Shown here: piece after piece, positions 6,061-32,745 of the stretch | Layout: the number at the start of each line of letters is the position of its first letter | Position numbering within the stretch: the first letter of the stretch is position 1 | From: Thalassobius vesicularis | GTDB lineage: Bacteria; Pseudomonadota; Alphaproteobacteria; Rhodobacterales; Rhodobacteraceae | Assembly: GCF_004799325.1 (NCBI RefSeq) | Contig: NZ_SSMD01000004.1 | Location: forward strand, 186,001 to 250,000 | Direction: 5' to 3' | DNA: 64,000 nucleotides | Translations under genes and position numbers: made by a program | Notes under the pieces: model-generated | What the model saw: only the letters and a program-made list of their open reading frames with translations | The model's database searches: none | What the model was told of the DNA's origin: nothing

Positions 6061-7277
6061 CGCTTTTCACGGATGGGCAGGTTGATCAGCGCCGAGAACG
6101 CGCCAACCCCCACGCCGACCCACCACACCGCGGTGTAATCGCCGTAAATGTCGTACATCCGGCCCCCCAGCCAGACGCCCAGAAAGCTGCCCAGCTGATG
6201 GCTGAAGAACACGATGCCGTACAGCGTGCCCATGTAGCGCAGACCGTAGATATGCGCGACCAGCCCGCTGGTCAGTGGCACCGTCGCCAGCCACAGCGCG
6301 CCCATGCTGATCGAGAACAGGATCACCGTCGCCGGCGTCATCGGCACCAGAATGAACGCCGCAGCCACCATGGTGCGCAACGCGTAAATCCCGGCCAGCA
6401 GGTACTTTTTCTGGTACCGGTTGCCCAGCCACCCGGCCAGCAGCGTGCCGCCGATATTGGCCAGACCGATCAGCGAAATCGCTGCCGCCCCAAGCGCCGA
6501 GGTGCTGCTGATCCCCAGCGCGGCCAGGATGCTGCCGTCGCCGATGGGGCCGCACATCTCGGTCACGAAGGCGGGGAAGTGGGCGGTCACAAAGGCCAGC
6601 TGGTAGCCGCAGGAAAAGAAGCCCAAAAAGATGAACGTATAGCTGGGGTCGCGGAACGCACGGCGCAGGATCGTGCCCATGCTTTCCTCCAGCTCGGCCT
6701 TGCTGGCGGTGACCGGGCTGCGCATCATCGGCAGCAGCGCCAGCATCACGATCAGCGCGGCGGCGAAGACCAGGAACACCTCTTGCCAGGGCATCATGCT
6801 CAGCATCCACTCGGCCACCGGGGCGCCGAACACTTGGCCCGCCGAACCCGCCGCCGTTGCAATCGCCAGCGACATCGAACGGTTGGCATCCGAGGCCGCC
6901 CGTCCGACCACCGCCAGGATCACCCCGAACCCGGTGCCCGCAACGCCGAAACCGACAAGGATTTCATACAGTTGGTGCGCCTCAGGCGTCACCGCAAAGG
7001 ACGACAGCACCAATCCGGCGGCATAGAACAACGCGCCCACGACGATAGCCTTGCGATCCCCGACCTTCTCGGCCAGCGCGCCGAACAGCGGCTGCCCGAT
7101 CCCCCAGGCCAGGTTCTGAATGGCAATCGCCAGCGAAAACTCGGCCCGCGGCCAGTTGAACTCGGTCGCGATCGGGATCTGGAACACGCCGAAACTGGCC
7201 CGCACGGAAAAGCCGACCAGGATGATCAGACAGCCAATGACCAGCACGGGATTGAAAAGGGGGGCTTTGGCCTGCAT
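6042..7277 (-). CDS. MFS transporter (OxlT/monocarboxylate-like)
   Basis: 411-residue major facilitator with twelve predicted membrane helices and two six-helix halves separated by a charged loop (around SPVTASKAELEESMG). The first loop has a GIGQPLFGALAEKVGDRK motif-A-like sequence. It most resembles MFS carriers of the oxalate/formate and monocarboxylate group, so it probably moves a small organic acid. The ATG at 7277 is preceded by AGGAGAG. It is transcribed divergently from zapE, with about 110-120 bases between them, and its end runs 19 bases into the convergent hydrolase gene. Confidence 0.85.
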   Translation of the reverse strand: MQAKAPLFNPVLVIGCLIILVGFSVRASFGVFQIPIATEFNWPRAEFSLAIAIQNLAWGIGQPLFGALAEKVGDRKAIVVGALFYAAGLVLSSFAVTPEAHQLYEILVGFGVAGTGFGVILAVVGRAASDANRSMSLAIATAAGSAGQVFGAPVAEWMLSMMPWQEVFLVFAAALIVMLALLPMMRSPVTASKAELEESMGTILRRAFRDPSYTFIFLGFFSCGYQLAFVTAHFPAFVTEMCGPIGDGSILAALGISSTSALGAAAISLIGLANIGGTLLAGWLGNRYQKKYLLAGIYALRTMVAAAFILVPMTPATVILFSISMGALWLATVPLTSGLVAHIYGLRYMGTLYGIVFFSHQLGSFLGVWLGGRMYDIYGDYTAVWWVGVGVGAFSALINLPIREKRQAVPA

Positions 7278-7398
7278 GTCGGCTCTCCTGTTGCGCCGGG
7301 CATTCGTAAGACAATTACGGGCAGCGTCAATTCAGGATTTGTGCACTGCAGCATCACTTTTCGTGACAACGCCCGCATCCCACGGTATGCCACTCGCC

Positions 7399-8606: not shown

Positions 8607-8668
8607 CTTCTTTCTGACTAAAATACTCCGGGGGAGTCCTCTGAAAGAGGACGGGGGCAGCGCCCCCT
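8607..8668 (-). repeat. Dispersed GC-hairpin repeat, copy D (inverted)
   Basis: On the minus strand it reads AGGGGGCGCTGCCCCC, a GTCCTCTTTCAGAGGAC stem, then TCCCCCGGAGTATTTTAG and CAGAAAGAAG. It forms an inverted pair with copy C in the gap between the convergent genes zapE and folC. The rest of the gap (8698-8849) shows no gene. Confidence 0.7.
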
Positions 8669-8671
8669 AAT

Positions 8672-8697
8672 AAAAAGGGGGCCGTTGGTTCGGCCCC
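8672..8697 (-). terminator. Rho-independent terminator for accD-folC
   Basis: On the minus strand a perfect 7-base stem GGGGCCG/CGGCCCC with a six-base loop is followed one base later by TTTTT. It lies about 150 bases after the folC stop. On the plus strand only a weak TCTTTC follows, so it could serve zapE poorly at best. Confidence 0.65.
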
Positions 8698-8849
8698 TCT
8701 TTCTGTCCTGCCTGTCTAACCTGTCGTCCCGGATGGTGCGGATGTACCATCTACGGTTCGGTGGGTGGGCCACCGACGAATGCCTTGGGTCGACCATAGG
8801 CGAATCGGTGCGAATCAGTCAACAGAAAGTGATTCGGTCCGATTCGGGA

Positions 8850-10121
8850 TCAGCCGTTTTCGCGCAGCACCGCGCCGGCCAGGTGCAGCGACCCGCAGAT
8901 CAGGACGCGCGCATGGGCGTCGGTGGCTGCGATTGCCTGCAGGGCCGAGAGCGTGGTTGTGGCGATCTCGTTCGGCAGCTTTGCCTTTGTGGCGGCGGCT
9001 GCTGTGGCTTCGGCGGGCAGGGTCAGTGGCTCGTCGGGGATGGTGACGGCATAGAGGCGTTCGGCCAGACCGGCCAGCGGGGTCAGGTAGCCCACCACGT
9101 CCTTGGTGTTGAGCATCCCGCAGATCAGGTAGGTCGGGCGTTTCGGCAGCGTGGCCAGATGTGCGGCCAGCGCCTGACCGGCGGCGGGATTGTGGCCGCC
9201 GTCCAGCCAAAGCTCGACCCCTGGGGCGGCCTCCACAAGCGGGCCGTGGCGCAGGCGTTGCATCCGGGCGGGCCAGTCGGCGCGGGTGACGGCGGGCTCG
9301 GCGGCGGCGTCCATCCCAAGGTGGCGCAAGGCGGCCAGGGCGGCGCCTGCGTTGTGCAGCTGATGCGCGCCGGGCAGGTTGGGCAGGGGCAGGTCCAGCA
9401 GGCCGCGTTCGTCCTGATAGATCATCCGCCCGCGTTCTTCCCACACCTGCCAGTGTTGCCCGTAGACCAGCAGCGGCGCGCCGAGGCGGGCGGCTTTGGC
9501 CTCGATCACCTCCAGCGCCGCGTCCTCTTGCGGGCCGACGACGCAGGGCACGCCGCGCTTGAGGATCCCGGCCTTTTCGCCGGCGATCTGCGCCAGGGTG
9601 GTGCCCAGATAGCTTTCGTGGTCCAGCGAGACCGGGGTGATGATCGTCATCGCCGGGTGCGGGATCACGTTGGTTGCGTCCAGGCGGCCGCCCAGGCCGA
9701 CCTCCAGCAGGCAGTAATCGGCGGGCTCGCGCGCCATTGCCAGCAGGGCGGCGGCGGTGGTGATTTCGAAGAACGTGATCTCTTGCCCGGCATTCGCGGT
9801 CAGGCAATCCTCCAGCACGTGCGCCAGCGCGGGTTCCGAGATGATCTGCCCGCTCAGCCGGATACGCTCATGAAACCGCGCCAGATGCGGCGAGGTATAG
9901 GCATGCACACGCAGCCCCTGCGATTCCAGCCCCGCCCGGATCATCGCCTGGGTCGAGCCCTTGCCGTTCGTCCCGGCGATATGGATCACCGGGGGCAGCT
10001 TGTCCTGCGGGTCGTCCAGCGCGTGCAGCAGGCGCCACATGCGGTCCAGCACCAGGTCGATGGTGACGGGGTGCAGGGTCTTCATCCGCTCCAGAAGGGC
10101 AGAGGAGGCGTCCGGGCTCAT
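8850..10121 (-). CDS. folC: Bifunctional folylpolyglutamate synthase/dihydrofolate synthase
   Basis: 423-residue Mur-ligase-like ATP-dependent enzyme that adds glutamate to dihydropteroate and then extends the polyglutamate tail of folates. The P-loop [10 protein letters not shown] is at about 48-57, the [15 protein letters not shown] motif is near 200-215, and the C-terminal domain carries [11 protein letters not shown]. Length is normal. Its start lies inside the end of accD (4-base overlap), giving the accD-folC arrangement common in alphaproteobacteria and proteobacteria generally. Transcription runs on to the terminator near 8680. Confidence 0.95.
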
Positions 10122-17827: not shown

Positions 17828-18742
17828 ATGGTCTTTCTGACGATCCTGCTGGGGCTTTTGCCCAGCTTTCTGATGGTCATTCTGGGCGGAGTGATCCGCA
17901 ACCGGCTATCGGTTAACGCGTGGCAGGGTCTGGATCGGCTGAACTTCGAAATCCTGTTCCCCGCCCTCATCTTCACCGCCGCCTCCAGCCGCCCCATCGC
18001 CGTGGCGGACATCGTGCATATTGGTCCGGCGGTCTGGGCGATCCTGCTGGCGGGGCTGTGTCTGGGCTATGGGGCTCGGCGCTTTGGTCCCAAAAATTTT
18101 ACTGATTTTGCAGGGGCTTGGCAGACGGCGTGGCGTTTCAACACGGCGCTTGGCTTCGTCGCGGTCGAGACACTCTCGGTTAAACCTGTCGGTATTCTGG
18201 CCGTCGCGGTGGGTATGGCGATCCCGATGGCGAACCTGTTTGCCGTCACCGCCCTGTCGCGCGGGGCAGGCGGATTTCGGCACACAATGGTTAAGATCGG
18301 GACCAATCCTTTCCTTCTGGCATCGGTCTGCGGCGTGCTTGTCGGCCTGTCTGGCCTGAAAATTCCGGGGCCCATCATGGCTCCGCTCGAGATGCTGTCA
18401 CGCGCCGCGATCCCGGTGGCCCTGATCTCGGTCGGCGCGACGATGAACTGGGGCGCGCTGGCCCGTCTGAACGCCTTCAGCGGAATAATTGTGGCGACAA
18501 AGCTGATTTTTTTGCCCGCGTTAACCATTTCGACCTGTCTGGCCCTGGGCATCGATCCGGCGATTTCGGCCACGCTGGTCCTTTTTTCCGCCCTCCCAAC
18601 CGCGTCGGCCGCGCACGTGTTGGCGGCGGGGTTTGGGGCGGATCGGGAATTGGCCGCAACGCTGGTTGCCCAGACAACATTGCTGGCCGCAGTGACGTTA
18701 CCGGTGTGGATCACATTGGCACAATTGACTTTTTTCGGCTGA
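17828..18742 (+). CDS. AEC family transporter
   Basis: 304-residue polytopic membrane protein of the auxin efflux carrier family. About ten hydrophobic segments; an N-terminal ILLGLLPSFLMVILGGVIRNR segment and a late LFSALPTASAAHVLAAGFG segment are typical of this family. It differs in sequence from the other two AEC proteins in the window. The ATG at 17828 follows GGGGGAAAC. It is followed on the same strand by a LysR-type regulator gene 150 bases on, which may control it, though the order regulator-after-target leaves this open. The substrate is unknown. Confidence 0.83.
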   Translation: MVFLTILLGLLPSFLMVILGGVIRNRLSVNAWQGLDRLNFEILFPALIFTAASSRPIAVADIVHIGPAVWAILLAGLCLGYGARRFGPKNFTDFAGAWQTAWRFNTALGFVAVETLSVKPVGILAVAVGMAIPMANLFAVTALSRGAGGFRHTMVKIGTNPFLLASVCGVLVGLSGLKIPGPIMAPLEMLSRAAIPVALISVGATMNWGALARLNAFSGIIVATKLIFLPALTISTCLALGIDPAISATLVLFSALPTASAAHVLAAGFGADRELAATLVAQTTLLAAVTLPVWITLAQLTFFG

Positions 18743-18892
18743 AATGGCGCGTCTGACCGATTGTTTCCGTGTTTCCCCGCCTTAAACGATCCCACAGATT
18801 ACCCCGATATTGTCCGTCCCGTGCCCCAGTCGCGCCCCAATCTTCGGCAATACCAGATGCTGAGGAATGACGAATACCGAAGGGGATCGCGA

Positions 18893-19798
18893 ATGGACCG
18901 CCTGACCGAGATGGAAGCCTTTGCCACCGTGGTAGACCAAGGTGGGTTTACCGATGCCGCCAAGAAAATGGGCATCTCTAAATCGGCGGTGTCAAAGCAT
19001 GTCTCCAGCCTGGAGGCCCGCCTGGGCGCCCGCCTGTTGAACCGCACGACCCGCCGGGTCAGCCCGACCGAGATCGGCCTGGCCTACTACGACCGTGCAC
19101 GCCGCGTGCTGAACGATGCCGGAGAGGCCGACGCGCTGGTCACCTCGATGCAATCCGCGCCGTCGGGTCTGCTGCGGATCAGTGTCGCCACCGATTTCGG
19201 GGTCAATCACCTGAGCCCCGTGCTGGGCGAATTTCTGGCGGAATTCCCGGATATTACGGTCAACATGGTGCTGAACAACCGCTATGTCGAGCTGATCAGC
19301 GAGGGCTTTGATATGGCCATTCGCATCGGCGAGCTGGAGGACAGCACCCTGCGGGCTCGCAAGCTGACCGAGACGACCAAACGGATGATCGCCTCGCCCG
19401 CGTATTTCGAAAAATACGGTCGCCCGACCAAGATCGACGATCTGAACGAGCACAAGCTGCTGCACTATTCCAGCCAAGCCGCTGGAAACGTGTGGAAAAT
19501 CACCGCTCCGTCCGGCGAGAAGCGCCAGGTGCGCACCGCTGGCTGGCTGAGCGTGAACGACGGTCAGTCGCTGCTGAACGCTGCGGTTTCCGGCCTGGGC
19601 ATCGCCTATCTGCACTCGTTCCTGTACGCCGACGCGATGGCGCAGGGTCTGGTCGAGGACGCGATCCCCGACCTGCCCGTCGAAACGCAGGGCATCTATG
19701 CGGTCTATCCGCCGGGCCGTTTCACGCAGCCCAAGGTCCGCGCGTTCATCGACTTCCTTGTGCATCAGTTCGCGGACAAGGGCCCGAACGACTGGTAA
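18893..19798 (+). CDS. LysR family transcriptional regulator
   Basis: 301-residue LysR-type regulator. The N-terminal winged HTH (about 1-60) contains GGFTDAAKKMGISKSAVSKHVSSLEARLG. The C-terminal part is a type-2 periplasmic-binding-like effector domain of the short-chain, CrgA/DmlR-like type with a RLLNRTTRRVSPTEIG hinge. The ATG at 18893 is taken because AAGGGGA precedes it and the HTH starts right after. A strong terminator follows at 19827. Targets are unknown; the adjacent AEC gene is one candidate. Confidence 0.9.
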   Translation: MDRLTEMEAFATVVDQGGFTDAAKKMGISKSAVSKHVSSLEARLGARLLNRTTRRVSPTEIGLAYYDRARRVLNDAGEADALVTSMQSAPSGLLRISVATDFGVNHLSPVLGEFLAEFPDITVNMVLNNRYVELISEGFDMAIRIGELEDSTLRARKLTETTKRMIASPAYFEKYGRPTKIDDLNEHKLLHYSSQAAGNVWKITAPSGEKRQVRTAGWLSVNDGQSLLNAAVSGLGIAYLHSFLYADAMAQGLVEDAIPDLPVETQGIYAVYPPGRFTQPKVRAFIDFLVHQFADKGPNDW

Positions 19799-19826
19799 TT
19801 TTCCTCCGAGTATCCTCCTGAAACTC

Positions 19827-19849
19827 CGCGCCCTTCGGGGCGCGTTTTT
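19827..19849 (+). terminator. Rho-independent terminator after the LysR gene
   Basis: Perfect 7-base stem CGCGCCC/GGGCGCG with a TTCG tetraloop, followed by TTTTTCTTTT. It lies 28 bases after the LysR stop and just before the 3' end of the convergent transglutaminase gene. Confidence 0.9.
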
Positions 19850-19857
19850 CTTTTGGA

Positions 19858-20739
19858 TCAGTTGGATACGGGGATGACGTCGACGGCATGTTTGCCCGAT
19901 TGCCCGCCCGAGGTGCGCAGCACGCCCTTCAGCGGCGAGACGTCCGAATAATCGCGGCCATAGCCGACCACGATGTGATCCGTGCCGACCAGCAGGTCGT
20001 TGGTGGGGTCATATTCGATCCAACCCAGCTCCTGCCCGCACCAGGCGCGAATCCAGGCATGCATTGCGTCTGCGCCTTCGAGCCGTTCCTGCCCCTCGGG
20101 TGGGGTGGTCCGCAGGAAGCCGCTAACGTAACTTGCGGGTATCCCAAGGGCCCGCAGGCAGGCCAGCATGATATGGGAAAAGTCCTGACAGACACCATGC
20201 CGGTTACGGAACGCCTCGATCGGGGGGGTGTCGACGTCGGTGGCGTTGGCGTCAAAACGCATGTCGGTGTGCAGCGATTTGCCCAGTACCAGAACGGTTT
20301 GCATCACCGTCTGGCCGGGGGTTCTGCACGCGGTGGCATAGTCGGCGAACTCGGCATTCGGGCGGACACGAGGGGACGGGGCCAGATAGTGCAATGGCGA
20401 ATGCGGCGACAGGTCCGTCACCGATTGCAGCTCTGTCGTCAGGGTGGGGAGCGTCGGGGACAGATCCAACGCCGGTGCCTGCGCGGTGCGCATGACGCGG
20501 GCCTTCAGCGTGACAGTCAGCTCTGTCAGGGGTTGGCGAAAGGCGATTTCGGTCACGGCATTGCCGAAAAAATCGTGCCGTTCGATCCGTTCGGACGGAC
20601 GCGGAGACACCTGCACAAGACCCGTCACCAGTTGCTGCTGGCCGGGCAAAGACAACGGCATCAAGCGCACAAGGTTGCGCACACTATCCGTGCTGCCGGG
20701 ATAGGTGTTCGTCAGGACAAGTGACAAATCGTAAAGCAT
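19858..20739 (-). CDS. Transglutaminase-like protease family protein
   Basis: 293-residue protein with an N-terminal beta-rich domain (about 1-140) and a transglutaminase-core fold. The catalytic triad is Cys in NRHGVCQDFSH, His in MHAWIRAWC, and Asp in IEYDPTNDLLVG. Bacterial members are usually papain-like proteases or amidases rather than crosslinkers. ATG 20739 is taken; the in-frame TTG 12 bases upstream overlaps the end of the ATP-grasp gene. It is the third gene of a minus-strand set with the ATP-grasp/alpha-E protein and the DUF2126 protein, which together form a predicted peptide-ligation and hydrolysis cluster. Confidence 0.88.
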   Translation of the reverse strand: MLYDLSLVLTNTYPGSTDSVRNLVRLMPLSLPGQQQLVTGLVQVSPRPSERIERHDFFGNAVTEIAFRQPLTELTVTLKARVMRTAQAPALDLSPTLPTLTTELQSVTDLSPHSPLHYLAPSPRVRPNAEFADYATACRTPGQTVMQTVLVLGKSLHTDMRFDANATDVDTPPIEAFRNRHGVCQDFSHIMLACLRALGIPASYVSGFLRTTPPEGQERLEGADAMHAWIRAWCGQELGWIEYDPTNDLLVGTDHIVVGYGRDYSDVSPLKGVLRTSGGQSGKHAVDVIPVSN

Positions 20740-20743
20740 GGCC

Positions 20744-23143
20744 CTATCCAAGGTAGGTGTTGTACAGAAGATTGGACATTTCTGACAGTGCTTTATTCAG
20801 CGATTTCAATGCCTTCAGCGTCATATCTTTCGGTGCGGCGACGGCCAGTTGCGTATGCAGGCGCAGGGCCTCGCGGCGCAGGGGGGTAAGTTGGCCAGCC
20901 TCTCCGGGGTGGGGCAGCGTGGCCAGCAGGTCGCGCATGGTTTCCAACTGGAACAGAATCGAGCGCGGGTTGCGCACGTCCAGCGCCAGCAGGTCGACCA
21001 CGCTGGCGGGGGTCGGGTCGCCCATGTAGTGGCGCTGGTGGATGATGATGCTGTCGCCCAGCTCGACCGCGATATCGACACTGCCCGAGGGGGCGTCGAA
21101 ATCGGCGAACTTGGACAGCATCAGCGTGGTGCTTTGGGCCCGCTCCAGCGCGCGGCCGAATTCCAGGAACTGCCACCCGGTCGAGCGATACATGTTGTCC
21201 TGCACCAACCCGGCGAACCCGGACAGCATCTGCAGCAGGGTGACCATCGCCCGGGCGCAGTCGGCCCCCGGCTGTGTCGTGCCTTGCAGCTGGTTCAGCG
21301 ATCGTTGCAAGTCGCGCAACGCCGCCCAGCCATCGACCGAGAACCTGTCCCGCACCTTGGACGCGCAACCCGCTGCTGCGCCGATCTGGGCGATCAGGTT
21401 GCTGGGGATCGGTTCATCCGTGTCGGTGCCAAAACCCTTCAGGTAGTCCGAGATTTGCTGGACGTTCACGTCCTCGGCATTGCCGGTTTCGGCCAGCCGC
21501 AGATGATAGGCCCGCAAAATTCGGATCGTGGTTTCCGCGCGTTCAACGTAGCGGCCCATCCAGTACAGGTTGTCGGCGGCGCGGCTGGGCAGCGGGTTTT
21601 CCGGCAGTCGTTGGACGCCATTGCCGGGGGTCAGGGTTTCGGGCTGAACGGGCGAGTCCGACACCACCCAGACATCGGCAACCGTGCCGCCGCGCTGCAT
21701 GGCGATTGCGGTGCTTTCGCCGGATGCGCCGATGCGAGCGTAGCCGCCGGGCATGATGGCCCAGCCGTCCGCCGTACGCGCCATGAACACCCGAACGGTC
21801 ATCGGTCGCGCCGAAAGCTTGCCATCGGCATAGACCGGGGTGGTCGACAGCGTCACCGCCTGTTGCGCGACCAGTTGTTCGCCTTCGCGGGCCACGCGGT
21901 CGGCCAGTGCTTCCTGACCTTCGGCCTTGCTGGCGCCTGCGACGGACACGATCGAATTCGGGTCAAACGGAAGGCCCGTAGAAAGCGCGGGGCCAAGCGT
22001 CATATGCTCGGCATTGGCCATGACGTAATCGCGCTCGGACTGGGTGCCGCACCACCAGGTGGCGATGTTGGGCATCTTCAGCGGCATGCCATAGGCGGCC
22101 TCGGCGATGCGGGGGACAAAGGCCAGCAGCGCGCGGGTTTCCAGAATGCCGGTGCCAAGCGCGTTCACCATCTGCAGTCGTCCCGAACGGATCGCGTTGA
22201 GCATGCCCGGCGTGCCGATGCGCGAGGTTTCGTCCAATTCCAGCGGGTCGGCAAAGCGCGCATCCATCCGGCGCCACAACAGGCTGATCGGTTTCAATCC
22301 GTCTACGGTGCGCACCATCGCCTGGCCGTTCTCGATGGTCAGATCTTCGCCTTCCAGCAGCATCAGGCCCAGGTAACGGGCGATGTAGACATGCTCGAAA
22401 TAGGTGTCGGTTCCGGGGCCTGGGGTCAGGATCGCCGGTGCGTCGCGGCCTTGCGCCCCGCGCGCGCCAAGGGCGGTTTGGAACGCCCGGAAAAAGCCCG
22501 CCAGCCGGTGGACGTTGGTATGGGCGAACAGACCCGGGAACACGCGGCTTGTCGCGCGGCGGTTTTCCAGCGCGAACCCGGCGCCCGAGGGGGCTTGCGT
22601 GCGGTCGCCCAGCACGAACCAGCTGCCGTCGGGGTTGCGGCCGATCTCGAACGCGATGTGGTGCAGGAAATAGCCCGAGACCGGGCGCACGCCGACCATC
22701 GGGCGCAGCCACTCGGGGTTCTGCGCAAGGAAGCTGGCAGGCAGGTGTCCGTCCCGCACCAGCGTCTGTTCGCCGTAGATGTCGGCCACGATCCGTTCAA
22801 GGATATCCGCGCGTTGCGTCATCGCGTCCGAGATGTCCGCCCATTCCGCCTCGGGCAGCAGAACTGGAATGTGGGACAGCGGCCAATCCCGCTCGCCCGG
22901 GGTCTTGTCCGAATAGCGCCGGAAATACACACCCGCGTCGCGCAGGTACTGGTCGCCACGCGCGATGCGCTCGTCGATCTCCTCGGGCGAGAGTTCCTGA
23001 AGCCGCGAGATGAAGGGCTCCCACACGGGGCGCATATGGCCAGATGCGTCGAATAACTCGTCGGCGGTGCCGGTGGGCACCGCGTAGTCGCTCAGGATGT
23101 CCGCGCCCGGCAGGGCCTGCGGCGCGGAAGAGGTTTCGGACAT
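20744..23143 (-). CDS. Circularly permuted ATP-grasp and alpha-E domain fusion protein
   Basis: 799-residue two-domain protein. Residues about 60-490 form a circularly permuted type-2 ATP-grasp (DUF404/DUF407-like, COG2308) with EGEDLTIENGQAMVRTVDGLKPI and TPGPGTDTYFEHVYIARYLG. Residues about 510-799 form the all-helical alpha-E domain (COG2307), opening with the hallmark SRAADNLYWMGRYVERAE. In many genomes these are separate genes, so the fusion shows they act together. ATP-grasp enzymes of this type are predicted from comparative genomics to form amide bonds to an unknown peptide; no product has been established to my knowledge. It ends 5 bases before the transglutaminase start. Confidence 0.9.
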   Translation of the reverse strand: MSETSSAPQALPGADILSDYAVPTGTADELFDASGHMRPVWEPFISRLQELSPEEIDERIARGDQYLRDAGVYFRRYSDKTPGERDWPLSHIPVLLPEAEWADISDAMTQRADILERIVADIYGEQTLVRDGHLPASFLAQNPEWLRPMVGVRPVSGYFLHHIAFEIGRNPDGSWFVLGDRTQAPSGAGFALENRRATSRVFPGLFAHTNVHRLAGFFRAFQTALGARGAQGRDAPAILTPGPGTDTYFEHVYIARYLGLMLLEGEDLTIENGQAMVRTVDGLKPISLLWRRMDARFADPLELDETSRIGTPGMLNAIRSGRLQMVNALGTGILETRALLAFVPRIAEAAYGMPLKMPNIATWWCGTQSERDYVMANAEHMTLGPALSTGLPFDPNSIVSVAGASKAEGQEALADRVAREGEQLVAQQAVTLSTTPVYADGKLSARPMTVRVFMARTADGWAIMPGGYARIGASGESTAIAMQRGGTVADVWVVSDSPVQPETLTPGNGVQRLPENPLPSRAADNLYWMGRYVERAETTIRILRAYHLRLAETGNAEDVNVQQISDYLKGFGTDTDEPIPSNLIAQIGAAAGCASKVRDRFSVDGWAALRDLQRSLNQLQGTTQPGADCARAMVTLLQMLSGFAGLVQDNMYRSTGWQFLEFGRALERAQSTTLMLSKFADFDAPSGSVDIAVELGDSIIIHQRHYMGDPTPASVVDLLALDVRNPRSILFQLETMRDLLATLPHPGEAGQLTPLRREALRLHTQLAVAAPKDMTLKALKSLNKALSEMSNLLYNTYLG

Positions 23144-23146
23144 GGG

Positions 23147-26100
23147 TTAAACCCCGGTGGGCCGCCTCAGGTCCAGCGTCAGCGGAAACTCGGGGTGCGG
23201 CGTTTCTGTCGGTGGCAGGTATCCCCCCGATGTATGCCCGTTCGGCTGGAACCGTGCAAGCCTGCGTGCCTGCGCCTCGTTGCCGTTCACCGGGAAGGTG
23301 TCGTAGTTGCGTCCGCCCGGATGCGCGACGTGATAAACGCAACCGCCGATCGCCCGGTTCGACCAGGTGTCGTAGATGTCAAAGGTCAAGGGCGCGTTGA
23401 TCGGTAGCACCGGATGCAGGGCTGAGGGCGGCTGCCACGCTTTGAACCGCACGCCGCCGATAAAGGTGCCGGATTCCTCGGTCGCTGCCATGGGCACGCG
23501 GCGTTGGTTGCAGGTGACGATGTAGCGGTCCGGGTTGGGCGTGATCAGCTTGGCTTGCAGACGCTCGACCGAGCTGTCGGTGTAGCGCACGGTGCCGCCG
23601 ATGGCGCCGGTTTCGCCCAGCACATGCCAGGGTTCCAGCGCCTGTTTCAGCTCTAGCGTGGTGCCTTCGTACGTGACTTCGCCACAGAAGGGGAAGCGGA
23701 ACTCGGCCTGCGCCTTGTACCATTCGGGGTTCATCTGGAACCCATGGTCGCCCAGATCGCGCAGCACGTCCAGCAGGTCTTGCCACAGGAAATGCGGCAG
23801 CATGTAACGGTCGTGCAGTACGGTGCCCCAGCGGACGGGTTTGCCCTTGAGCGGGGATTTCCACATGCGCGCGATGATGGCGCGGATCAGCAATTGCTGG
23901 GCCAGCGACATCTTGGCGTCCGGCGGCATCTCGAATCCGCGGAATTCGACCAGGCCCAGGCGGCCGGTGGGGCCGTCGGGGGAATAGAGCTTGTCGATGC
24001 AGATCTCGGCCCGGTGGGTGTTGCCGGTCACGTCGATCAGGATGTTGCGCAGCAGACGGTCCACCAGCCAGGCCGGAGGCTGCATGCCTTCGTCCGGGTT
24101 GGGGATCTGGCTCAGCGCGATTTCCAGCTCGTACAGGCTGTCATGGCGGGCTTCGTCGATGCGCGGCGCCTGGCTGGTCGGGCCGATGAACAGACCCGAG
24201 AATAGGTAGCTCAGCGAGGGGTGGCGCTGCCAATACAGGATCAGCGAGCGCAGCAGGTCGGGCCGCCGCAGGAAGGGCGAGTCGTTGGGGGTTTCGCCAC
24301 CCACGACGACATGGTTGCCGCCGCCGGTGCCGGTGTGGCGACCGTCGATCATGAACTTGTCGGCACCCAAGCGGGACTGGCGGGCCTCTTCATAGATCGC
24401 CTGCGTGGTGGCGACGCATTCATCCCAGTTGGCGGCGGGGTGAATGTTCACCTCGATCACGCCGGGGTCGGGGGCGACACGGATCACGTTCAGGCGGCTG
24501 TCATGGGGCGGCGCGTAGCCCTCGATATGCACGGGCAGGCCGGTTTCTTCGGCAGCGGCCTCGGCGGTCGCCAGCAGCTCCAGGTAATCCTCCAGCGTTT
24601 CGGTCGGGGGCATGAAGACGCACAGCCGCCCGTCGCGGGGTTCCACGGCGATCGCGGTGCGGACGGCGCCGCCGGCCGGATCGACGCCTTGTTCCATCAC
24701 CTTCTGGCGCGGGGTGTTTTCGGCGGTTGTCTCGGACGGCTGCGAATGCCCTTCGGAGACGGCGGGCATCATCGCCTCGCGCTCGGCCTCTTCCTCGGCC
24801 AGGCGGTCGATTTCGGCCTGAACCAAACGGCGGCGTTCGGTGAGCGCGGCGTGGAAATCGGGCAGCGGCGCCACGGGCACGGTCGGGTCCGCCGGATAGG
24901 TGTAGGGGTACTGTGAGGGCGGCACATAGGGCAACGCGTTCAGCGGCAGGCGGAAGCCGACCGGGCTGTCACCGGGGACCAGGAAGATGTGCCCGCGCCG
25001 GGGGCGCCACATCTCGGACCGCCAGCGTTCGGGCGCGTTGCGGCTTTGCCAGCGTTGCACCGGCAGGACATAGCCCGCCGGTTCAGTCAGGCCGCGGCTG
25101 AACACGCGGGCGAAACGGGCGCGTTCCTCGGCATCCTTCAGCTTCGAATTCTCAGGCGAGACGTTCGGCGGCAGGTTCGCCTCTCTCAGTATCCACTCGC
25201 CGGGGTCTTCATAGGTCGGCTGTGCATAGTCGGGGTTCACGCCCAGCTTTTTGGCAAAGCACCCCAGGAACAGTCCGGCATCGTCGGCGCTGGCCCGTTG
25301 CTTAATGGTTTCGCGGGCGATCAGGTCGGGGTTCTTCCACACCGGTTTCCCGTCGCGGCGCCAGTAGAGCGAGAAGGTCCAGCGCGGCAGCGTCTCGCCC
25401 GGATACCATTTGCCCTGACCATAGTGCAGGAACCCGCCCGGCGCGAAGCGGTCGCGCAAGCGGCGGATGAGCGTATCCGCCAGCCCGCGTTTCTGCGGCC
25501 CGACGGCGGCGGTGTTCCACTCGGCGCTTTCGAAATCGTCGATCGAGACAAAGGTCGGCTCGCCGCCCATTGTCAGGCGAACGTCGCCTTCGGCCAGGCT
25601 TTCGTCCACCTTGTGGCCCAGTTTCAGCAGGTCGTCCCAGGCGTCGTCCGAGAACGGTTTGGTGATGCGCGGGTGTTCGGAGACCCGTTTCACCGTCATG
25701 TCGAAACTGAAATCGACCTCGGCATAGCTGGCCATGCCCGCGATGGGCGCGGCGTTGCGGTAATGCGGGGTGGCGGCCAGCGGGATGTGGCTTTCACCCG
25801 CCAAGAGGCCCGAGGTCGGGTCCAGCCCGATCCAGCCCGCGCCGGGGATGTAGGCCTCGACCCAGGCGTGCAGGTCGGTGAAATCCACCTCGGTGCCCGA
25901 CGGGCCGTCCAGCGCCTTGAGGTCCGGTTTCAGCTGGATCAGATAGCCCGAGACAAACCGCGCGGCGATCCCCAGATGCCGCAGTACCTGCACCAGCAAC
26001 CAGCTGGAATCGCGGCAGGATCCGCTGCCGATCTCCAGCGTCTCGTCAGGCGTTTGCACGCCCGGTTCCAGCCGGATGGTGTAGTTCACGTGGTTCGCGA

Positions 26101-26554
26101 CCAGTTGGTTCAGCTGCACCAGCTTGTCCACGATCCGCATCTTGTCGCGCGGAACGGTGTGCAAGAACTGGTCGAAATGGTGGCTGGTCGGCTCGGGTTT
26201 CAGGTAGATCGACAGGTCTTGGTCGATGTCCAGCGGGTACTCGAACGGCCAATGCTCGGCGCTTTCCTCGACGAAAAAGTCGAACGGGTTGTAGACCGAC
26301 ATGTCGGCGGTCAGGTCCACCTCGATCTTGAACTCGGTCACCGGCTCGGGGAAAACGAAGCGCGCCAGCCAGTTGCCATAGGGGTCCTGCTGGTGGTTCA
26401 CGAAATGCGGCTGCGGCCCCACCTTCAGCGAATGCGCGATCACGCGTGTGCGCCCATGCGGGGCAGGCCGCAGGCGGATGATCTGCGGGCCCAGAGTCAC
26501 GGGGCGATCGTATTTGTAATGGGTCAGGTGGTGGATGCTTGCGATAATGGCCAT
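23147..26554 (-). CDS. Transglutaminase-DUF2126 fusion protein
   Basis: 1135-residue cytoplasmic protein. The N-terminal 300 residues form a transglutaminase-like domain with Cys at about 180 ([10 protein letters not shown]), His in [12 protein letters not shown] and Asp in [15 protein letters not shown]. The remaining 800 residues belong to DUF2126 (COG4196), a large domain related to glutamate-ligase-like enzymes, with GGNHVVVGG and [15 protein letters not shown] motifs. ATG 26554 is chosen because the family starts at the [13 protein letters not shown] segment; an open frame reaches further upstream without support. It leads the three-gene cluster (3-base gap to the ATP-grasp gene) and lies 130 bases after ureG on the same strand. 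Confidence 0.9.
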
Positions 26555-26684
26555 TGGGTGCCCGTTCGTGAGTGAAGTCCCTGCAGTATGATCAGCCTGC
26601 GGGTCGGCGACAGTTGGAAACGCCCTGGCATTCTGACTTGCAAAGTCTGGCCGGGTAAACTGTTTAATATTCAGGCGGTCCCGG

Positions 26685-27308
26685 TCAGGCGACCGGAACC
26701 AGCCCACCGATTTCCTCGATCAGGGCGATGACCTGATCCACGCCCTTGCCGTGACGCAGGGCGGTAAAGACAAACGGGCGACCGGCGCGCATCCGGGTGG
26801 CGTCGCGGTCCATCACCTCTAGCGAGGCGCCGACATAGGGGGCCAGGTCGGTCTTGTTGATGATCAGCACGTCGGATTTGGTGATGGCTGGGCCGCCCTT
26901 GCGGGGGATTTCCTCGCCCGCGGCGACGTCGATCACATAGAGCGTCAGGTCCGCCAGTTCGGGGCTGAAGGTCGCCGACAGGTTGTCACCGCCGCTTTCG
27001 ATCAGCACGATCTCGACCTCGGGGTGCCGTTTGCGCATCTCGTCCACGGCAGCCAGGTTGATCGAGGCATCCTCGCGGATCGCGGTATGCGGGCAGCCGC
27101 CGGTTTCGACGCCGATGATGCGGTCTTGCGGCAGCACCTGCATCCGCATCAGCGCCTCGGCATCCTCTTGGGTGTAGATGTCATTGGTGATCGCACCGAT
27201 GGAATATTTCTGCGACAGCGCCTTGCACAGGGTCGCCGTCAGCGTGGTTTTCCCTGCGCCAACGGGGCCGCCGATACCGATACGAAGTGGACCGTGAGGA
27301 GAGCTCAT
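26685..27308 (-). CDS. ureG: Urease accessory GTPase UreG
   Basis: 207-residue SIMIBI-class GTPase that drives nickel delivery to apo-urease in complex with UreF and UreD/H. P-loop GGPVGAGKT lies at about 13-21, the metal-binding Cys-Pro-His at about 72-74 ([11 protein letters not shown]), a Walker-B-like [10 protein letters not shown] follows, and the base-recognition INKTDLAP is near 150. Length is typical. It overlaps ureF by 4 bases and is the last ure gene of the operon. Confidence 0.97.
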
Positions 27309-27943
27309 GAGCGGAAAAGCCTTGTATATTGGGTTTCGTGTTTCATCGAGGCGATGTCAGCCAGCATGACAGACCCGCCCAGATCGTCCAGCGTCAGATG
27401 CAGGGCTTCGGCGGCAAGGGTCTGGCACAACGGGGCCAGCGGGGTCAGGCTGGCCTGACCTTCGGTTTGTCCCAGCGGCACCAGCCGGATCGCGGCCGAG
27501 GTCAGGTTGGACGCGAACGCATGCAGATACATCGCGCAGGTCTGTTGCAGCGGCAGGCCCTGACGCGCGGCGGCATGGCCCAAAGCGACCGGGTAGGTCA
27601 GCGCGGGTAGTGCATCGCCCCAGATCGCGGTGGTGGTCCGGCAGAAGGCTGCGCCCTGTTGCTCTGTTTCCAACAGCCGTTCGGCGGACGGCGCAAAGGC
27701 GCGCGCCAGTTCGTCGATTTCGCTCGGATCATCGGCGCGATAGGCGTGGCACAGAAGGATCGCATCATTGCGCCCGGTGCCGTGTTGCAGGATGTCCGTA
27801 AGCCAGTCGCGGAAGCTGGCGGCGTTTGTGACTTGCTGCGCCTCGATCGCCCATTCCAGTCCGTGGCTATAGCTGAACGCCCCCACCGGATAGGCGGGCG
27901 ACAGCCATTGCGCCAGGGTCAGAAGGGCCGCGTCAGTGATCAT
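27305..27943 (-). CDS. ureF: Urease accessory protein UreF
   Basis: 212-residue all-helical accessory protein that joins UreD and UreG in the urease activation complex. It opens with [25 protein letters not shown], the conserved UreF signature, and has the DDAILL-like [12 protein letters not shown] segment later. ATG 27943 is taken because it precisely precedes the conserved N-terminus; the longer open frame upstream is only the overlapping end of ureE. It overlaps ureE by 11 bases and ureG by 4. Confidence 0.94.
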
Positions 27944-28466
27944 GGGGATGATGGTGCCCGTCGTCATGAGAATGACCATTCGAATGCGTATGGTCATGGC
28001 TGTGGGTGTGCAGCGTGTTCCCGTGTTCATGCGCGTGGGTGCGGCCATGACCATATGCGCCGCCTTCGGGGGTGAAAGGCTCAGACACCTCGGTCACCGT
28101 CGCCCCCAGATGCGAGAGCATCGCCATGATGACGTGATCGCGCTGGATCAGCAGGCGGTCGGCCTCGATCTGGCAGGGGGTGTGACGGTTACCGATATGC
28201 CAGGCCAGGCGCGGCATGTCGGGGCCGGTGACGGCCAGCAAGTTCTCCTCGGCGGCGATCACCTCGATGCAGCGGCCATCGGTCAGCAGGAACAGATCGC
28301 CGTGATCCAGGGATGTCGTGTGCTCCAGATCGACAAGGAAGCGATCGCCTTGAACGGTGGTCAGAACCTTGCGGCGCAGGAACCGTTCGTCATAGGTCAG
28401 CGTGACCAGATCGGTGGCCTGGGCATCGCCTGCGTGCAGGATGGTGTGGGCGGTGGGCTGGGTCAT
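27933..28466 (-). CDS. ureE: Urease accessory nickel-binding chaperone UreE
   Basis: 177-residue UreE, which binds Ni and passes it to the UreG complex. The N-terminal peptide-binding domain (DERFLRRKVLTTVQGDRFLVDLEHTTSL split over about 27-55) and the central metal-binding domain with the conserved GNRHTPCQIE His are both present. The last 40 residues are strongly His-rich (HGRTHAHEHG and later HSHDHTHSNGHSHDDG), as in Klebsiella-type UreE, implying nickel buffering. It starts 7 bases after ureC and overlaps ureF by 11 bases. Confidence 0.94.
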   Translation of the reverse strand: MTQPTAHTILHAGDAQATDLVTLTYDERFLRRKVLTTVQGDRFLVDLEHTTSLDHGDLFLLTDGRCIEVIAAEENLLAVTGPDMPRLAWHIGNRHTPCQIEADRLLIQRDHVIMAMLSHLGATVTEVSEPFTPEGGAYGHGRTHAHEHGNTLHTHSHDHTHSNGHSHDDGHHHPHDH

Positions 28467-28473
28467 TTCGGCC

Positions 28474-30183
<1,710 letters not shown>

Positions 30184-30517
30184 GGAATCCTCACAACTGT
30201 TTCATAGTGTTGCAGCCGTCCGAATCTGTTCGCTCGGACGCGGCTTAAGCTTTTGTTCTCGATCGAAAAAAAGGCGAAATGAAAAATGTGAAGATGGAAT
30301 AAGGTCTTGAAAATATTGAAGGATGCGGCCGACCTCTAGGGCAGAATATCGTAGCCTATTTCTCTTAAGCATCTGAAATTTCAACGTGTACAGAAAAGTG
30401 GAAATTAGTGGGTCGCCCAGTCGGTATAAAATAAACCACACCGAACCAAATTTCGTGACTATTAGAGAGGTTGCCAGCTTTCGGGATGAGCCTGAAAGCC
30501 CGTCTAAGGAGGCAACT

Positions 30518-30604
30518 TTGACAACTATCGAGCTATCGCTCCGACTCTTTTCACTGTTTCTTGCAGCTCTGGCCATTTGGGGGAAATACCGTGGCTGGTT
30601 CTGA
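30518..30604 (+). CDS. Candidate 28-residue membrane peptide
   Basis: A TTG start at 30518 lies 5 bases after a perfect TAAGGAGG. The frame encodes 28 residues: a short polar start (MTTIELS), then a hydrophobic stretch LFSLFLAALAIW long enough with flanks to span or dip into a membrane, and a basic aromatic end GKYRGWF. It is antisense to the ure operon and followed by a 9-base perfect hairpin. A longer frame opens upstream at GTG 30386 but lacks a ribosome binding site. I do not recognise the family. The coding case rests on the ribosome binding site and composition alone. Confidence 0.4.
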   Translation: MTTIELSLRLFSLFLAALAIWGKYRGWF

Positions 30605-30608
30605 TCCC

Positions 30609-30630
30609 ACCGGATCGCTTGCGATCCGGT
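30609..30630. other. Perfect hairpin after the small frame
   Basis: ACCGGATCG-CTTG-CGATCCGGT forms a 9-base perfect stem with a tetraloop 4 bases after the small frame's stop. There is no T-run on either strand, so it is not a standard terminator. It may stabilise an RNA end on the plus strand or hamper read-through of the ure transcript on the minus strand. Confidence 0.5.
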
Positions 30631-30730
30631 TCGCGCCCGACCCGCCCCCCAGGGCGGGCGCGAATACGCACCCACCCTCGGGCCGGGCGCGAACCTGCGT
30701 TGGGCGTATGATACAGGGGCCGTCAACAAA

Positions 30731-31036
30731 TCACAGCGCCCCCATGACCTTTTGGTTGAAGCCGTAGACCGTGCGGGCGCCGGAGATCGGGACCAGGGTC
30801 ACTTCGCGGCGTTGGCCGGGCTCGAACCGGACGGCGGTGCCGGCGGCGATGTTCAGGCGCATGCCGCGGGCGGCGTTGCGGTCGAAGTCCAGCGCGGGGT
30901 TGGTTTCGTAGAAATGGTAGTGCGAGCCGACCTGAACCGGGCGGTCGCCGGTATTGGCAACCATCAGGGTCAGCGCCTCGCGCCCTTCGTTCAGGATCAG
31001 GTCGCCCTCGGCGGGGAACAGCTCTCCGGGGATCAT
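30731..31036 (-). CDS. ureB: Urease subunit beta
   Basis: 101-residue beta subunit of urease. It starts [20 protein letters not shown] and contains [14 protein letters not shown] and [15 protein letters not shown], the hallmark segments; the His of SHYHF is conserved. ATG 31036 overlaps the stop of the small gene upstream (ATGA). Complete and normal in length. The gap to ureC on its 3' side is the anomaly of this operon. Confidence 0.97.
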
Positions 31037-31197
31037 TTGCGGCCCCATGCGACCAGCGCAGCCAGGCCGACGGCGACAGACCCGGCGATCAGCGGCAGCC
31101 AGTTGGGATCGCTGGCATGGGGCAGAATGTGCACACCGTCATGGGCCAGTGCGGGCGCGGCGGACAGGATCAGGGCGGTTGCGGCGAGGCGTTTCAT
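31033..31197 (-). CDS. Small exported or membrane protein inside the urease operon
   Basis: 54-residue protein between ureA and ureB. A signal-like N-terminus ([20 protein letters not shown]) is followed by a His-containing segment ([15 protein letters not shown]), one membrane helix ([16 protein letters not shown]) and a basic end GRK. ATG 31197 follows GGAACC-type purines; the upstream frame has no homology-like content. It overlaps ureB by 4 bases and sits 11 bases after ureA, so it is surely co-expressed. Function unknown. Three His near the processed N-terminus could bind metal, which is inference. Confidence 0.72.
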
Positions 31198-31208
31198 GGC
31201 GGTTCCTT

Positions 31209-31511
31209 TCAGCGGATGGGGTTGTGGACGGTGACCAGCTTGGTGCCGTCGGGAAAGGTGGCTTCGACCTGCACTTCGTGGATCATCTCGGGGATGCCCT
31301 CCATGCATTGGTCACGGGTGATGACTTGCGCGCCGGCCATCATCAGGTCGGCCACGCTGCGCCCGTCGCGGGCCCCTTCGACCACGGCGTCGGTGATCAG
31401 GGCGATGGCCTCGGGGTGGTTCAGTTTGACGCCACGGGCCAGGCGTTTGCGGGCGACCTCGGCAGCCATCGATATCAGGAGTTTGTCTTTTTCGCGGGGG
31501 GTCAGGTTCAT
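31209..31511 (-). CDS. ureA: Urease subunit gamma
   Basis: 100-residue gamma subunit of urease. The sequence begins [20 protein letters not shown] and holds [13 protein letters not shown] and [12 protein letters not shown], all diagnostic. It is full length and lies two bases after the ureD stop, keeping the ureDA order of alphaproteobacteria. It is separate from ureB, unlike the fused form of some other bacteria. Confidence 0.97.
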
Positions 31512-31513
31512 GG

Positions 31514-32377
31514 TCAGATCATCCAGGTTCGTGGAAGAGAGGCGCCGTTCAAATGGGTCAGAACGGGGATGAGGGTTTGGCGCAGGACAAAGCTGTCCTC
31601 GGCCAGGATACGGGCGAACAGAACGCCGGGGCGGATCAGCGAGACACCCCCGGTGGCGGGCATCAGATCACGCAGGGCGGGCAGGTGGCCCTCGGCCTCG
31701 GGGGCGACCAGCAGGACCGAGGCCAGCGCGCTGGCATGGCCCAGCATGGCGGGCGCGGTCAGGCGGGGCAGGGTCTGGGTGCTCAGGCGCAGGGTGTCGG
31801 CAAAGACCAGATCGCCGCCGCGACGGATGCGAATGCGGTCAATCAGATGGGTGGCGGTCAGCGTCTCGCCCATCGCGCTGCGGCCCAGAACCAGCGATTC
31901 CACCGCCAGCAGACGCGCATCGGCGGCCATGTCGACATGCAGAGCGCGGTCCAGCGCCCCGTGGTCGAACAGGATGGTTTCCTGCGGTAGCCAGTCCAGA
32001 CGGGCGCCAGCTTCAATGGTCAGGCGGTTTTCGACCCGGCCAACCTCGCCGGGTTGGGCGCGGTAGATGCGTTCGGCGGCTTGGGTGGTCAGGCACAGGC
32101 GAGACCCCTCGCGCGCGCCCGCATTGAATTGCAGGTGGTCGCCGCCAGTGATGCCGCCAGCTGTATTCAGCAACACCCCCGTTAAACGGTCGCGGGCCCC
32201 GTGTGGGAAAAGTGTCTTGAGACAGCCCTGAGTCTTCAGGTCCGACAAAACCGACAGGCCATCACGGGCCTTGGAGCGCAAAAAAGCGCGGCCAACTGCG
32301 CGTGGTTGGCGCGGGCTTGGCCTTTCGGTCGCTATGTCGGTCAAGGTGGTGATTGGCCCCTCCATCGGTTGCGGCAT
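31514..32377 (-). CDS. ureD: Urease accessory protein UreD
   Basis: 287-residue accessory protein that scaffolds UreF and UreG on apo-urease. Characteristic segments are [43 protein letters not shown] and [18 protein letters not shown] 32377 is used; a second ATG at 32365 is possible and neither has a good Shine-Dalgarno. It is the first gene of the ure operon, divergent from urtA across a 368-base region. Confidence 0.92.
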
Positions 32378-32745
32378 GAGTCGCACACGCACGCAGCAGG
32401 AGGAAGCTGGATGCTGAAAATGCGGGCTGGAAGGCGCGGCGCGGATCAACGTCGCGTGAAAAGCGGGCAGTTTCGCCGGCGTCTGGCTAGAAATTAATCA
32501 GAATTGGCCAAGTGCGACGCGACTCCCGTTAAGGACTTTGCGACCGCAGCATCTTCGTGCGCTTGCTGGCGATGCCCGCTCATAGCCTCACATCGGCGTG
32601 ATCTGGGTGTGTGACGACCGCCCTGGCGTGGAAATCAGAAACGGCCGCCACACGGATGCAACAAAAACAATGTTGCGGGGGTCAGGTAAGGTCTCGGACC
32701 GCCTGGCGCAAGGCCCAGCCTGCGCGCCCCGCCTCGGAGGATGAC
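32378..32745. promoter_or_regulatory. Divergent control region of ure and urt operons
   Basis: 368 bases between ureD (minus) and urtA (plus) with no supportable gene. It must hold promoters for both operons. I could not find a convincing -24/-12 sigma-54 element or an NtrC dyad of standard spacing. The most distinctive element is the inverted repeat at 32658-32676. The urtA Shine-Dalgarno GGAGG is at 32736-32740. Confidence 0.6.
32658..32676. promoter_or_regulatory. Operator-like inverted repeat upstream of urtA
   Basis: GCAACA and TGTTGC are perfect 6-base inverted half-sites around a 7-base A-rich centre (AAAACAA), 70 bases before the urtA start. There is no following T-run. The half-site spacing (19 bases overall) does not match the NtrC dyad. 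It is a possible binding site for an unidentified regulator of urea uptake. Confidence 0.4.

Follow-up and report, generated by a model that had tools for sequence, protein, structure and literature searches.

The three-gene cassette at positions 19858-26554 of the DNA considered here, a window of 64,000 nucleotides from Thalassobius vesicularis (assembly GCF_004799325.1, contig NZ_SSMD01000004.1, positions 186,001 to 250,000; part of contig C4 in our numbering), is rather likely an accessory module of a wider amide-ligase network of Anbu and circularly permuted ATP-grasp proteins, and it probably serves the cell under nitrogen limitation. This reading is built on the observed presence, order and co-occurrence of genes and on the observed loss and conservation of residues. 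In a profile search of the window proteins against Pfam and NCBIfam, the cassette was found to consist of the following genes:

26554..23147, minus strand: transglutaminase-DUF2126 protein, TGD (Pfam Bact_transglu_N, Transglut_core and DUF2126)
23143..20744, minus strand: fused ATP-grasp and Alpha-E protein (Pfam CP_ATPgrasp_2, 409.9 bits, and Alpha-E, 195.2 bits)
20751..19858, minus strand: small transglutaminase-like protein (Pfam) with an intact Cys-His-Asp triad

In all three, the named domains score far above the curated Pfam cut-offs (1329.5 bits against 27 for DUF2126, PF09899), and NCBIfam has no name for any of them. The reading frame of the small transglutaminase opens with TTG, and an ATG follows four codons downstream. 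An earlier note on this DNA had assigned the same gene families at the same positions, correctly according to Pfam and the translations. It was also right that no Anbu gene adjoins the cassette, since the genome gave a single Anbu match, which lies on another contig.

An Anbu Operon Elsewhere in the Genome

Anbu is the bacterial cousin of the proteasome. Its operon consists of genes for an ATP-grasp protein, Alpha-E, a transglutaminase and Anbu, a description credited to Iyer et al. (2009) in the passages of PMC6376114 and PMC5666114 available to us. Such a row (ATP-grasp, Alpha-E, transglutaminase, Anbu; L006:7516-11491) is present on contig C2 of T. vesicularis, where it was found by a search for Alpha-E as the second Alpha-E locus of the genome. 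The Anbu protein encoded there is the sole Anbu match in the whole genome, and Thr1, Asp17 and Lys32 are all present. A genome without Anbu is ruled out by this complete, canonical operon, and the absence of Anbu from the cassette is thus a local matter only. The earlier note had considered that a co-expressed Anbu gene elsewhere would weaken its claim, and the presence of such a gene, if not its co-expression, is now established. Compared with the canonical operon, the cassette likewise unites ATP-grasp, Alpha-E and transglutaminase, the first two fused, but it contains no Anbu gene, and its ATP-grasp domain is not intact (E162G, N164R, K371G, loop lost).

Distribution of the Cassette and Its Partners

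Two samples were searched, one of 149 genomes (148 genera) from the family and one of 329 genomes from the phylum, which overlaps the former in a few genomes. In the family sample, DUF2126 was found in 50 genomes and Anbu in 105; both were present in 47 genomes, only DUF2126 in three, only Anbu in 58, and neither in 41. Anbu thus accompanies DUF2126 in 47/50 genomes, as compared with 58/99 genomes without DUF2126 (odds ratio 11, P 2.8e-6, kinship ignored). A separate ATP-grasp gene was present in all 50 genomes with DUF2126 and in 59 of the 99 without it.

The phylum sample, in which a separate ATP-grasp was accepted at E 1e-110 or better and Anbu at E 1e-20, yielded matches to DUF2126 in 95 genomes, to a separate ATP-grasp in 171, to Anbu in 113 and to ureG in 112. 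Again, the separate ATP-grasp accompanied DUF2126 without exception (95/95 versus 76/234 other genomes; counted by genus, 51/51 versus 48/121). The figure of 95/95 rests on the threshold of E ≤ 1e-110; among the matches listed, all 95 score at ~1e-142 or better. Anbu was found in 59/95 genomes with DUF2126 and in 54/234 others. In at least 15 of the 95 genomes, DUF2126 and Anbu share a strand with less than 1 kb between them; these neighbor counts are minima, with distances running between matched domains rather than gene ends. Since DUF2126 adjoins Anbu in at least 15 genomes, the cassette is not a separate, Anbu-free kind of system. Since 36 of the 95 genomes have no Anbu, while the separate ATP-grasp is never missing, Anbu is optional. 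Throughout both samples, the module was always accompanied by a separate ATP-grasp encoded elsewhere in the genome, and because this partner accompanies DUF2126 in every genome, DUF2126 is, judged by gene content, part of the ATP-grasp network, with Anbu as a frequent but optional member.

The order TGD, fused ATP-grasp/Alpha-E, small transglutaminase was found in 45 of the 50 DUF2126-containing genomes of the family, all of whose neighborhoods were read, and is no accident. These 45 include one genome with a 3.3 kb insert and one with TGD in several frames. At locus L051 (G125), the ~3.3 kb are inserted between the gene for the fused ATP-grasp and that for the small transglutaminase. In four of the remaining genomes, TGD is divergent from a row of ATP-grasp, Alpha-E and Anbu that has no transglutaminase of its own, and the only Bact_transglu_N domain found in these genomes, two of which are 82-83 % complete, is that of TGD; the four count as one event, because the three that are in the tree group together. 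In the fifth genome, the locus is cut by a contig end. Both operons form one seven-gene row at L070, and in Pseudooceanicola pacificus (L092) the cassette faces a complete Anbu operon head to head. In a larger set of 83 loci (80 named ones and three from congeners), the three genes occur together in 74, and a contig end truncates four of the other nine. At the remaining five (L100, L129, L135, L146, and L164), TGD is solitary: neither the fused ATP-grasp nor the small transglutaminase was matched in the at least 10 kb read downstream. The idea that the three genes are always together is ruled out by these five loci, and for the same reason the cassette is not obligatory.

The Urease Neighborhood

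The cassette of T. vesicularis is flanked by urease genes on one side and by a regulator gene on the other, as follows:

26685..32449, minus strand: urease operon ureD-A-B-C-E-F-G (Pfam and NCBIfam), directly upstream of the cassette
26685-27308, minus strand: ureG, directly upstream of TGD and on the same strand
26555..26684, minus strand: gap of ~130 bases separating ureG from the conserved start codon (ATG) of TGD
19827..19844, plus strand: terminator-like stem-loop after the LysR gene, between it and the cassette
18761-19798, plus strand: LysR regulator (Pfam and NCBIfam), convergent, downstream of the cassette

No terminator-like site was listed on the minus strand in the gap between ureG and TGD, and read-through from the urease operon into the cassette is possible; in the genus of the window, the cassette may be expressed in this way. 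The terminator scan as a whole gave no more sites than were found in shuffled sequences. Both flanks are those described in the earlier note, ureG on the 5' side and a convergent LysR gene on the 3' side. There, ureG merely marked the border of the cassette, a role that undersells it, since it is possibly the most informative neighbor.

Within the genus of the window, DUF2126 was found in four of nine genomes, and in all four it lies directly behind ureG. The congener G076, where searches for DUF2126, Anbu and ATP-grasp gave no match, has an empty site: ~150 bases separate the LysR gene from ureG, and the genes beyond them are the same. The cassette appears to have been gained or lost as one unit in this genus, and the tree indicates one origin of its junction with the urease genes. 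Adjacency to urease as a general property of the cassette is ruled out: only one of the 50 DUF2126-containing genomes of the family sample, that of the window, has the cassette directly behind ureG, followed by the three congeners. At L060 (G088), ureD and ureA are found 3 kb downstream of the cassette.

In four other genera, it is the Anbu operon itself that abuts urease genes, in different gene orders as read from the longest reading frames. The operon follows ureG on the same strand at L273, with an extra transglutaminase gene in between; it precedes ureD by ~2 bases on the same strand at L287; it is head to head with ureD at ~180 bases at L272; and it lies beside ureF and ureG (8618-9822) at L271 (G141). 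No ureABC genes were matched in the 18 kb around the latter locus, and its ureF-ureG pair is perhaps a partial urease remnant. The extra transglutaminase-like gene of L273 (G006; 6611-7387, between ureG and the ATP-grasp gene) matches the one in the Anbu operon at 39 %. At L288, L285, and L275, Anbu and urease genes are near each other without adjoining. As far as these gene maps go, the ATP-grasp network thus recurs beside urease genes.

The excess of such neighborhoods depends on distance and on the unit of counting. Pairs of a family locus and ureG within 12 kb numbered four against 0.84 expected (P 0.011), and within 25 kb seven against 1.75 (P 0.002). In the phylum sample, five genomes in four genera were found within 12 kb, where 0.73 were expected (P 0.0009 and 0.007), and nine genomes within 25 kb (P 3e-5), still in four genera (P 0.07). 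A cluster edge within ~1 kb of urease genes was seen in five genera against 0.13 expected (P 3e-7), with a threshold that was picked after the data had been seen. The ureG gene itself is present in 47/50 genomes with DUF2126 versus 70/99 without it in the family, and in 60/95 versus 52/234 in the phylum, kinship being ignored.

Independent hints of a link with urea and nitrogen come from published work, of which parts were available to us. In Pseudomonas putida, expression on nitrate exceeded that on ammonium by log2 values of 4.44 for PP_2685, named as a proteasome beta subunit, and 3.99 for PP_2688, a circularly permuted ATP-grasp, next to 4.38 for ureD and 4.37 for urtA (excerpts of PMC8050072). 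We take PP_2685 and PP_2688 for members of the P. putida Anbu operon. In marine metagenomes, the domains Bact_transglu_N, Alpha-E and circularly permuted ATP-grasp show a correlation with urea domains, according to the passages seen of PMC3597751, and upregulation of Anbu under nitrogen limitation is cited in those of PMC6376114 and PMC5666114.

It is a possibility to be taken seriously, albeit not the one that we favor, that nothing but chance or shared regulation underlies the urease neighborhood, without any chemical link. The single origin in the genus of the window, the modest family excess at 12 kb and the lack of significance by genus at 25 kb in the phylum are all consistent with this explanation. 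It accounts less well for the direct abutment in five genera, even with its post hoc threshold, for the gene orders that differ between genera, and for the independent reports on expression (PMC8050072) and metagenomes (PMC3597751), as far as their text was available. We therefore prefer the reading in which the network is functionally tied to urea and nitrogen.

The Fused ATP-Grasp/Alpha-E Protein Is a Predicted Pseudoenzyme

Residues of the ATP-grasp domain are numbered here after the protein encoded on contig C2. Relative to the latter, the fused protein of the window carries the substitutions E162 to G, N164 to R and K371 to G, and it has lost the glycine loop and K471. When 120 fused copies, all distinct and including that of the window, were compared with eight stand-alone copies, E162 was found to have given way to Gly in 69 copies, to Ala in 28, to Ser in 11 and otherwise to further residues, N164 to Arg in 114, K371 in most cases to Gly, Ser, Ala or Glu, and K471 to Ala in 105, whilst the glycine loop was mostly deleted. 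E162 and N164 are never both kept (0/120); E162 alone is kept in one copy (L156), and K371 in none. Twelve further fused copies from the phylum (loci L275-L285 and L290) have neither E162 nor N164, but K371 in five and K471 in ten, the five K371-keeping copies all being outside the class of the window. The two predicted Mg ligands are thus both kept in 0/132 fused copies overall, and the frequent retention of K471, occasional retention of K371 and complete loss of E162 and N164 in the phylum copies suggest stepwise decay.

The stand-alone proteins present the opposite picture. The full residue set was found in 52 of the 53 genomes in which they were read, including all 50 family genomes with DUF2126, where D149, E162, N164, K371, the glycines and K471 are kept. 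The exception, G049, has no DUF2126 and gave a truncated reading without the loop and K471; E162 and N164 are kept there also, as in 53/53. In the phylum, the D, E, N, K and glycines are conserved in 19/19 stand-alone copies, with Ser or Ala at position 376; these 19 and the 12 fused copies mentioned above come from 20 stretches chosen for their neighborhoods. Hence, every full-length separate ATP-grasp that was read keeps the residues of the predicted active site.

An AlphaFold2 (AF2) model of the fused protein was obtained with a predicted local distance difference test score (pLDDT) of 86.6 and a predicted template-modeling score (pTM) of 0.84. It shows the ATP-grasp fold, with matches to 3n6x (Z 40.9, root-mean-square deviation (rmsd) 3.4, 442 residues aligned) and 2io8 (Z 20.8); the Alpha-E part matches other helical proteins with Z 10 or less, which we read as uninformative. 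The predicted active-site residues were mapped to D318/E330/N332/K533 of GspS by motif and by the D-x11/12-E-x-N spacing, and MAFFT also placed K371 on K533 of Gss. The aligned Gss residues are taken to have their familiar roles. The fused ATP-grasp looks catalytically dead on these grounds. The proposal in the earlier note to assay the ATP-grasp for activity consequently loses its target, since the fused copy lacks the predicted Mg- and ATP-binding residues; for the same reason, the ligase to be assayed is DUF2126 or the ATP-grasp of contig C2.

Alternatively, the fused domain might be reshaped rather than dead, with the Arg that took the place of the Asn, together with changed loops, serving another chemistry or another nucleotide. 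Conservation extends to the new residue (Arg in 114/120) and to a consensus D-R-T-Q-A-P-S-G (alignment of 36 sequences), and K371 and K471 persist in 5 and 10 of the 12 phylum copies, respectively. We nevertheless deem this unlikely, as the predicted Mg ligands are never both kept and the counted copies have either lost the glycine loop or carry it in altered form.

The predicted pseudoenzyme may even be dispensable, since at L286 (G192) no fused pseudo-ATP-grasp was matched within 18 kb. At this locus, a DUF2126-Anbu row is divergent from ATP-grasp, Alpha-E and transglutaminase genes.

DUF2126 as a Predicted Ligase

The AF2 model of TGD is of moderate confidence (pLDDT 74.6, pTM 0.64). Its transglutaminase part resembles 3isr (Z 22.0), and the triad Cys180-His229-Asp245 is invariant in 173/173 aligned rows (168 distinct sequences); the triad of the small transglutaminase is likewise intact in 118/118 rows, that of the window included. 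The DUF2126 part (approximately residues 298-970) matches glutamine synthetases (GS) with Z up to 12.8 (rmsd 4.1, 251 aligned), followed by GmaS (Z 11.3), YbdK (10.5) and Dop (10.4), whilst no sequence match for this part was found in PDB at E 1. Its conserved residues follow the order of the GS motifs, i.e., E332, E678, E701, H748 and E870-x-R872. All are invariant in the 173 rows except E678, which is found in 172. Position 334, the second Glu of the first GS motif, is Thr in 173/173. The equivalence with GlnA was set by eye from motif and spacing, and we take the GlnA residues to have their familiar roles. DUF2126 is therefore likely, as the model and the motifs suggest, a GS-fold amidoligase and the working ligase of the module.

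A hydrolase with the same fold, comparable to the depupylase Dop, would be an alternative for DUF2126. Dop is indeed among the structural matches (Z 10.4, rmsd 4.0, 226 aligned), and the invariant Thr at the position of a first-motif Glu would suit a departure from ligase activity. Yet, the GS and GmaS score slightly higher (Z 11-12.8), and even though the gap is small, we regard a hydrolase as improbable and retain the predicted ligase.

Proposed Mechanism and Its Weaknesses

In the mechanism that we propose, the stand-alone ATP-grasp, encoded on contig C2 in T. vesicularis, would install a first amide bond on its substrate, which may be an amino acid, a polyamine or a peptide. DUF2126, acting as an ATP-dependent carboxylate-amine ligase, would then make a second amide bond or perform a conjugation. 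The inactive ATP-grasp/Alpha-E protein could act as a scaffold or substrate-binding subunit that holds the substrate or the partners, and the transglutaminase domains, together with Anbu where present, may break, exchange, reverse or trim such bonds. The system might in this way store or recycle amide nitrogen, or tag proteins, under nitrogen limitation. The ATP-grasp of Yersinia bercovieri was reported to release phosphate from ATP (as described in the available part of PMC6376114).

Several observations weigh against this proposal. According to the same excerpt, the Anbu of Y. bercovieri displayed neither peptidase activity nor specific binding to the partners from its operon (PMC6376114). 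Anbu is missing in 36/95 phylum genomes with DUF2126, TGD is solitary at 5/83 loci, and within the family sample only the genus of the window has urease genes directly before the cassette. Co-occurrence is not function, and kinship was handled only by counting genera; also, the reading of active sites was incomplete for the 95 ATP-grasps of the phylum. The residue assignments have their own weaknesses, as hhalign gave nothing usable either for DUF2126 versus GlnA or for the stand-alone ATP-grasp versus Gss of Escherichia coli, MAFFT put E162/N164 on E391/N393 of Gss instead of E330/N332, and Foldseek alone gave a weak match for the DUF2126 part (YbdK, E 0.026). With respect to regulation, no sigma-70-like promoter was found in 18600-32700, and sigma-54 and NtrC patterns in the window were below the means of shuffled sequences.

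A bolder version of the mechanism strikes us as quite doubtful. It takes the network for a proteobacterial system that conjugates proteins or peptides, is linked to urea and nitrogen limitation and resembles the Pup-proteasome system, in which the ATP-grasp makes the first step, the pseudo-ATP-grasp/Alpha-E protein is the scaffold, and amide nitrogen is spared or fed beside urease. The likeness would lie in the pairing of a GS-fold ligase with a proteasome-like N-terminal nucleophile (Ntn) hydrolase.

Equally doubtful in our opinion is a self-standing, Anbu-independent cluster in which the three genes, unaided by others, produce a small peptide or modify a protein: its stable gene order (45/50 family genomes) and the occurrence of DUF2126 without Anbu (36/95 phylum and 3/50 family genomes) would fit, but it was not found without a separate ATP-grasp (50/50 and 95/95), its own ATP-grasp is degenerate, DUF2126 occurs in Anbu neighborhoods in at least 15/95 genomes, and TGD is present at some loci from which the other two genes are absent. 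The suggestion in the earlier note of a candidate undescribed peptide or modification system therefore survives in part: no defined product was found, but the cassette probably belongs with the Anbu/ATP-grasp network.

Relation to Known Systems

The Anbu-type system as such was already predicted (Iyer et al., 2009), and its tie to urea and nitrogen is hinted at in the cited papers, as judged from the parts available. The cassette shares three protein families with the Anbu operon, of which this genome has a full copy (L006) and which is a neighbor or partner of DUF2126 in many relatives. In contrast to this operon, it lacks Anbu, adds DUF2126, and has its ATP-grasp fused to Alpha-E and degenerate. 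The DUF2126 part resembles GS, GmaS, YbdK and PafA/Dop in fold (PafA itself was not listed) and in the order of motif residues, but it differs from GS-fold ligases by a large insert, a fused transglutaminase domain and the lack of a PDB sequence match. Similarly, the fused ATP-grasp has the fold of GspS and of the circularly permuted ATP-grasp 3n6x, but lost the predicted Mg ligands and the ATP loop and carries Alpha-E. The mycobacterial region Rv2566-Rv2569c presumably also holds a transglutaminase-DUF2126 protein and an ATP-grasp/Alpha-E protein.

The rlo and rim operons of Pseudomonas, as presented in the accessible text of PMC12239564, also combine an ATP-grasp with a protease, and rlo in addition encodes a transglutaminase-like protein. 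However, their ATP-grasp is RimK-related, the transglutaminase is membrane-bound and inactive, the protease is a retropepsin, and the three-gene rlo operon has no DUF2126, Alpha-E or Anbu. The literature searched, judged from listings and passages, contained no report that the ATP-grasp is dead or that the genes are arranged beside urease in this way, and a search under DUF2126, alone or with transglutaminase, returned nothing. As of 2017, the function of Anbu and its operon had yet to be settled, according to the passages of PMC6376114 and PMC5666114.

For the DUF2126 branch, these results single out DUF2126 rather than its ATP-grasp as the enzyme to assay, the stand-alone ATP-grasp as the partner that it seems to need, and nitrogen limitation and urea as the conditions to look under. 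The recurring adjacency to urease makes the role of the system easier to test, and natural gene rows, in which the Anbu operon runs into ureD or urease genes run into the Anbu operon, make the link testable by deletion.

Two minor features of the urease region of the window may be added. An open reading frame on the minus strand between ureB and ureC (30202-30729) has no Pfam match at E 0.001, and beyond the urease operon lies a divergent Peripla_BP_5 gene, which we read as urtA.

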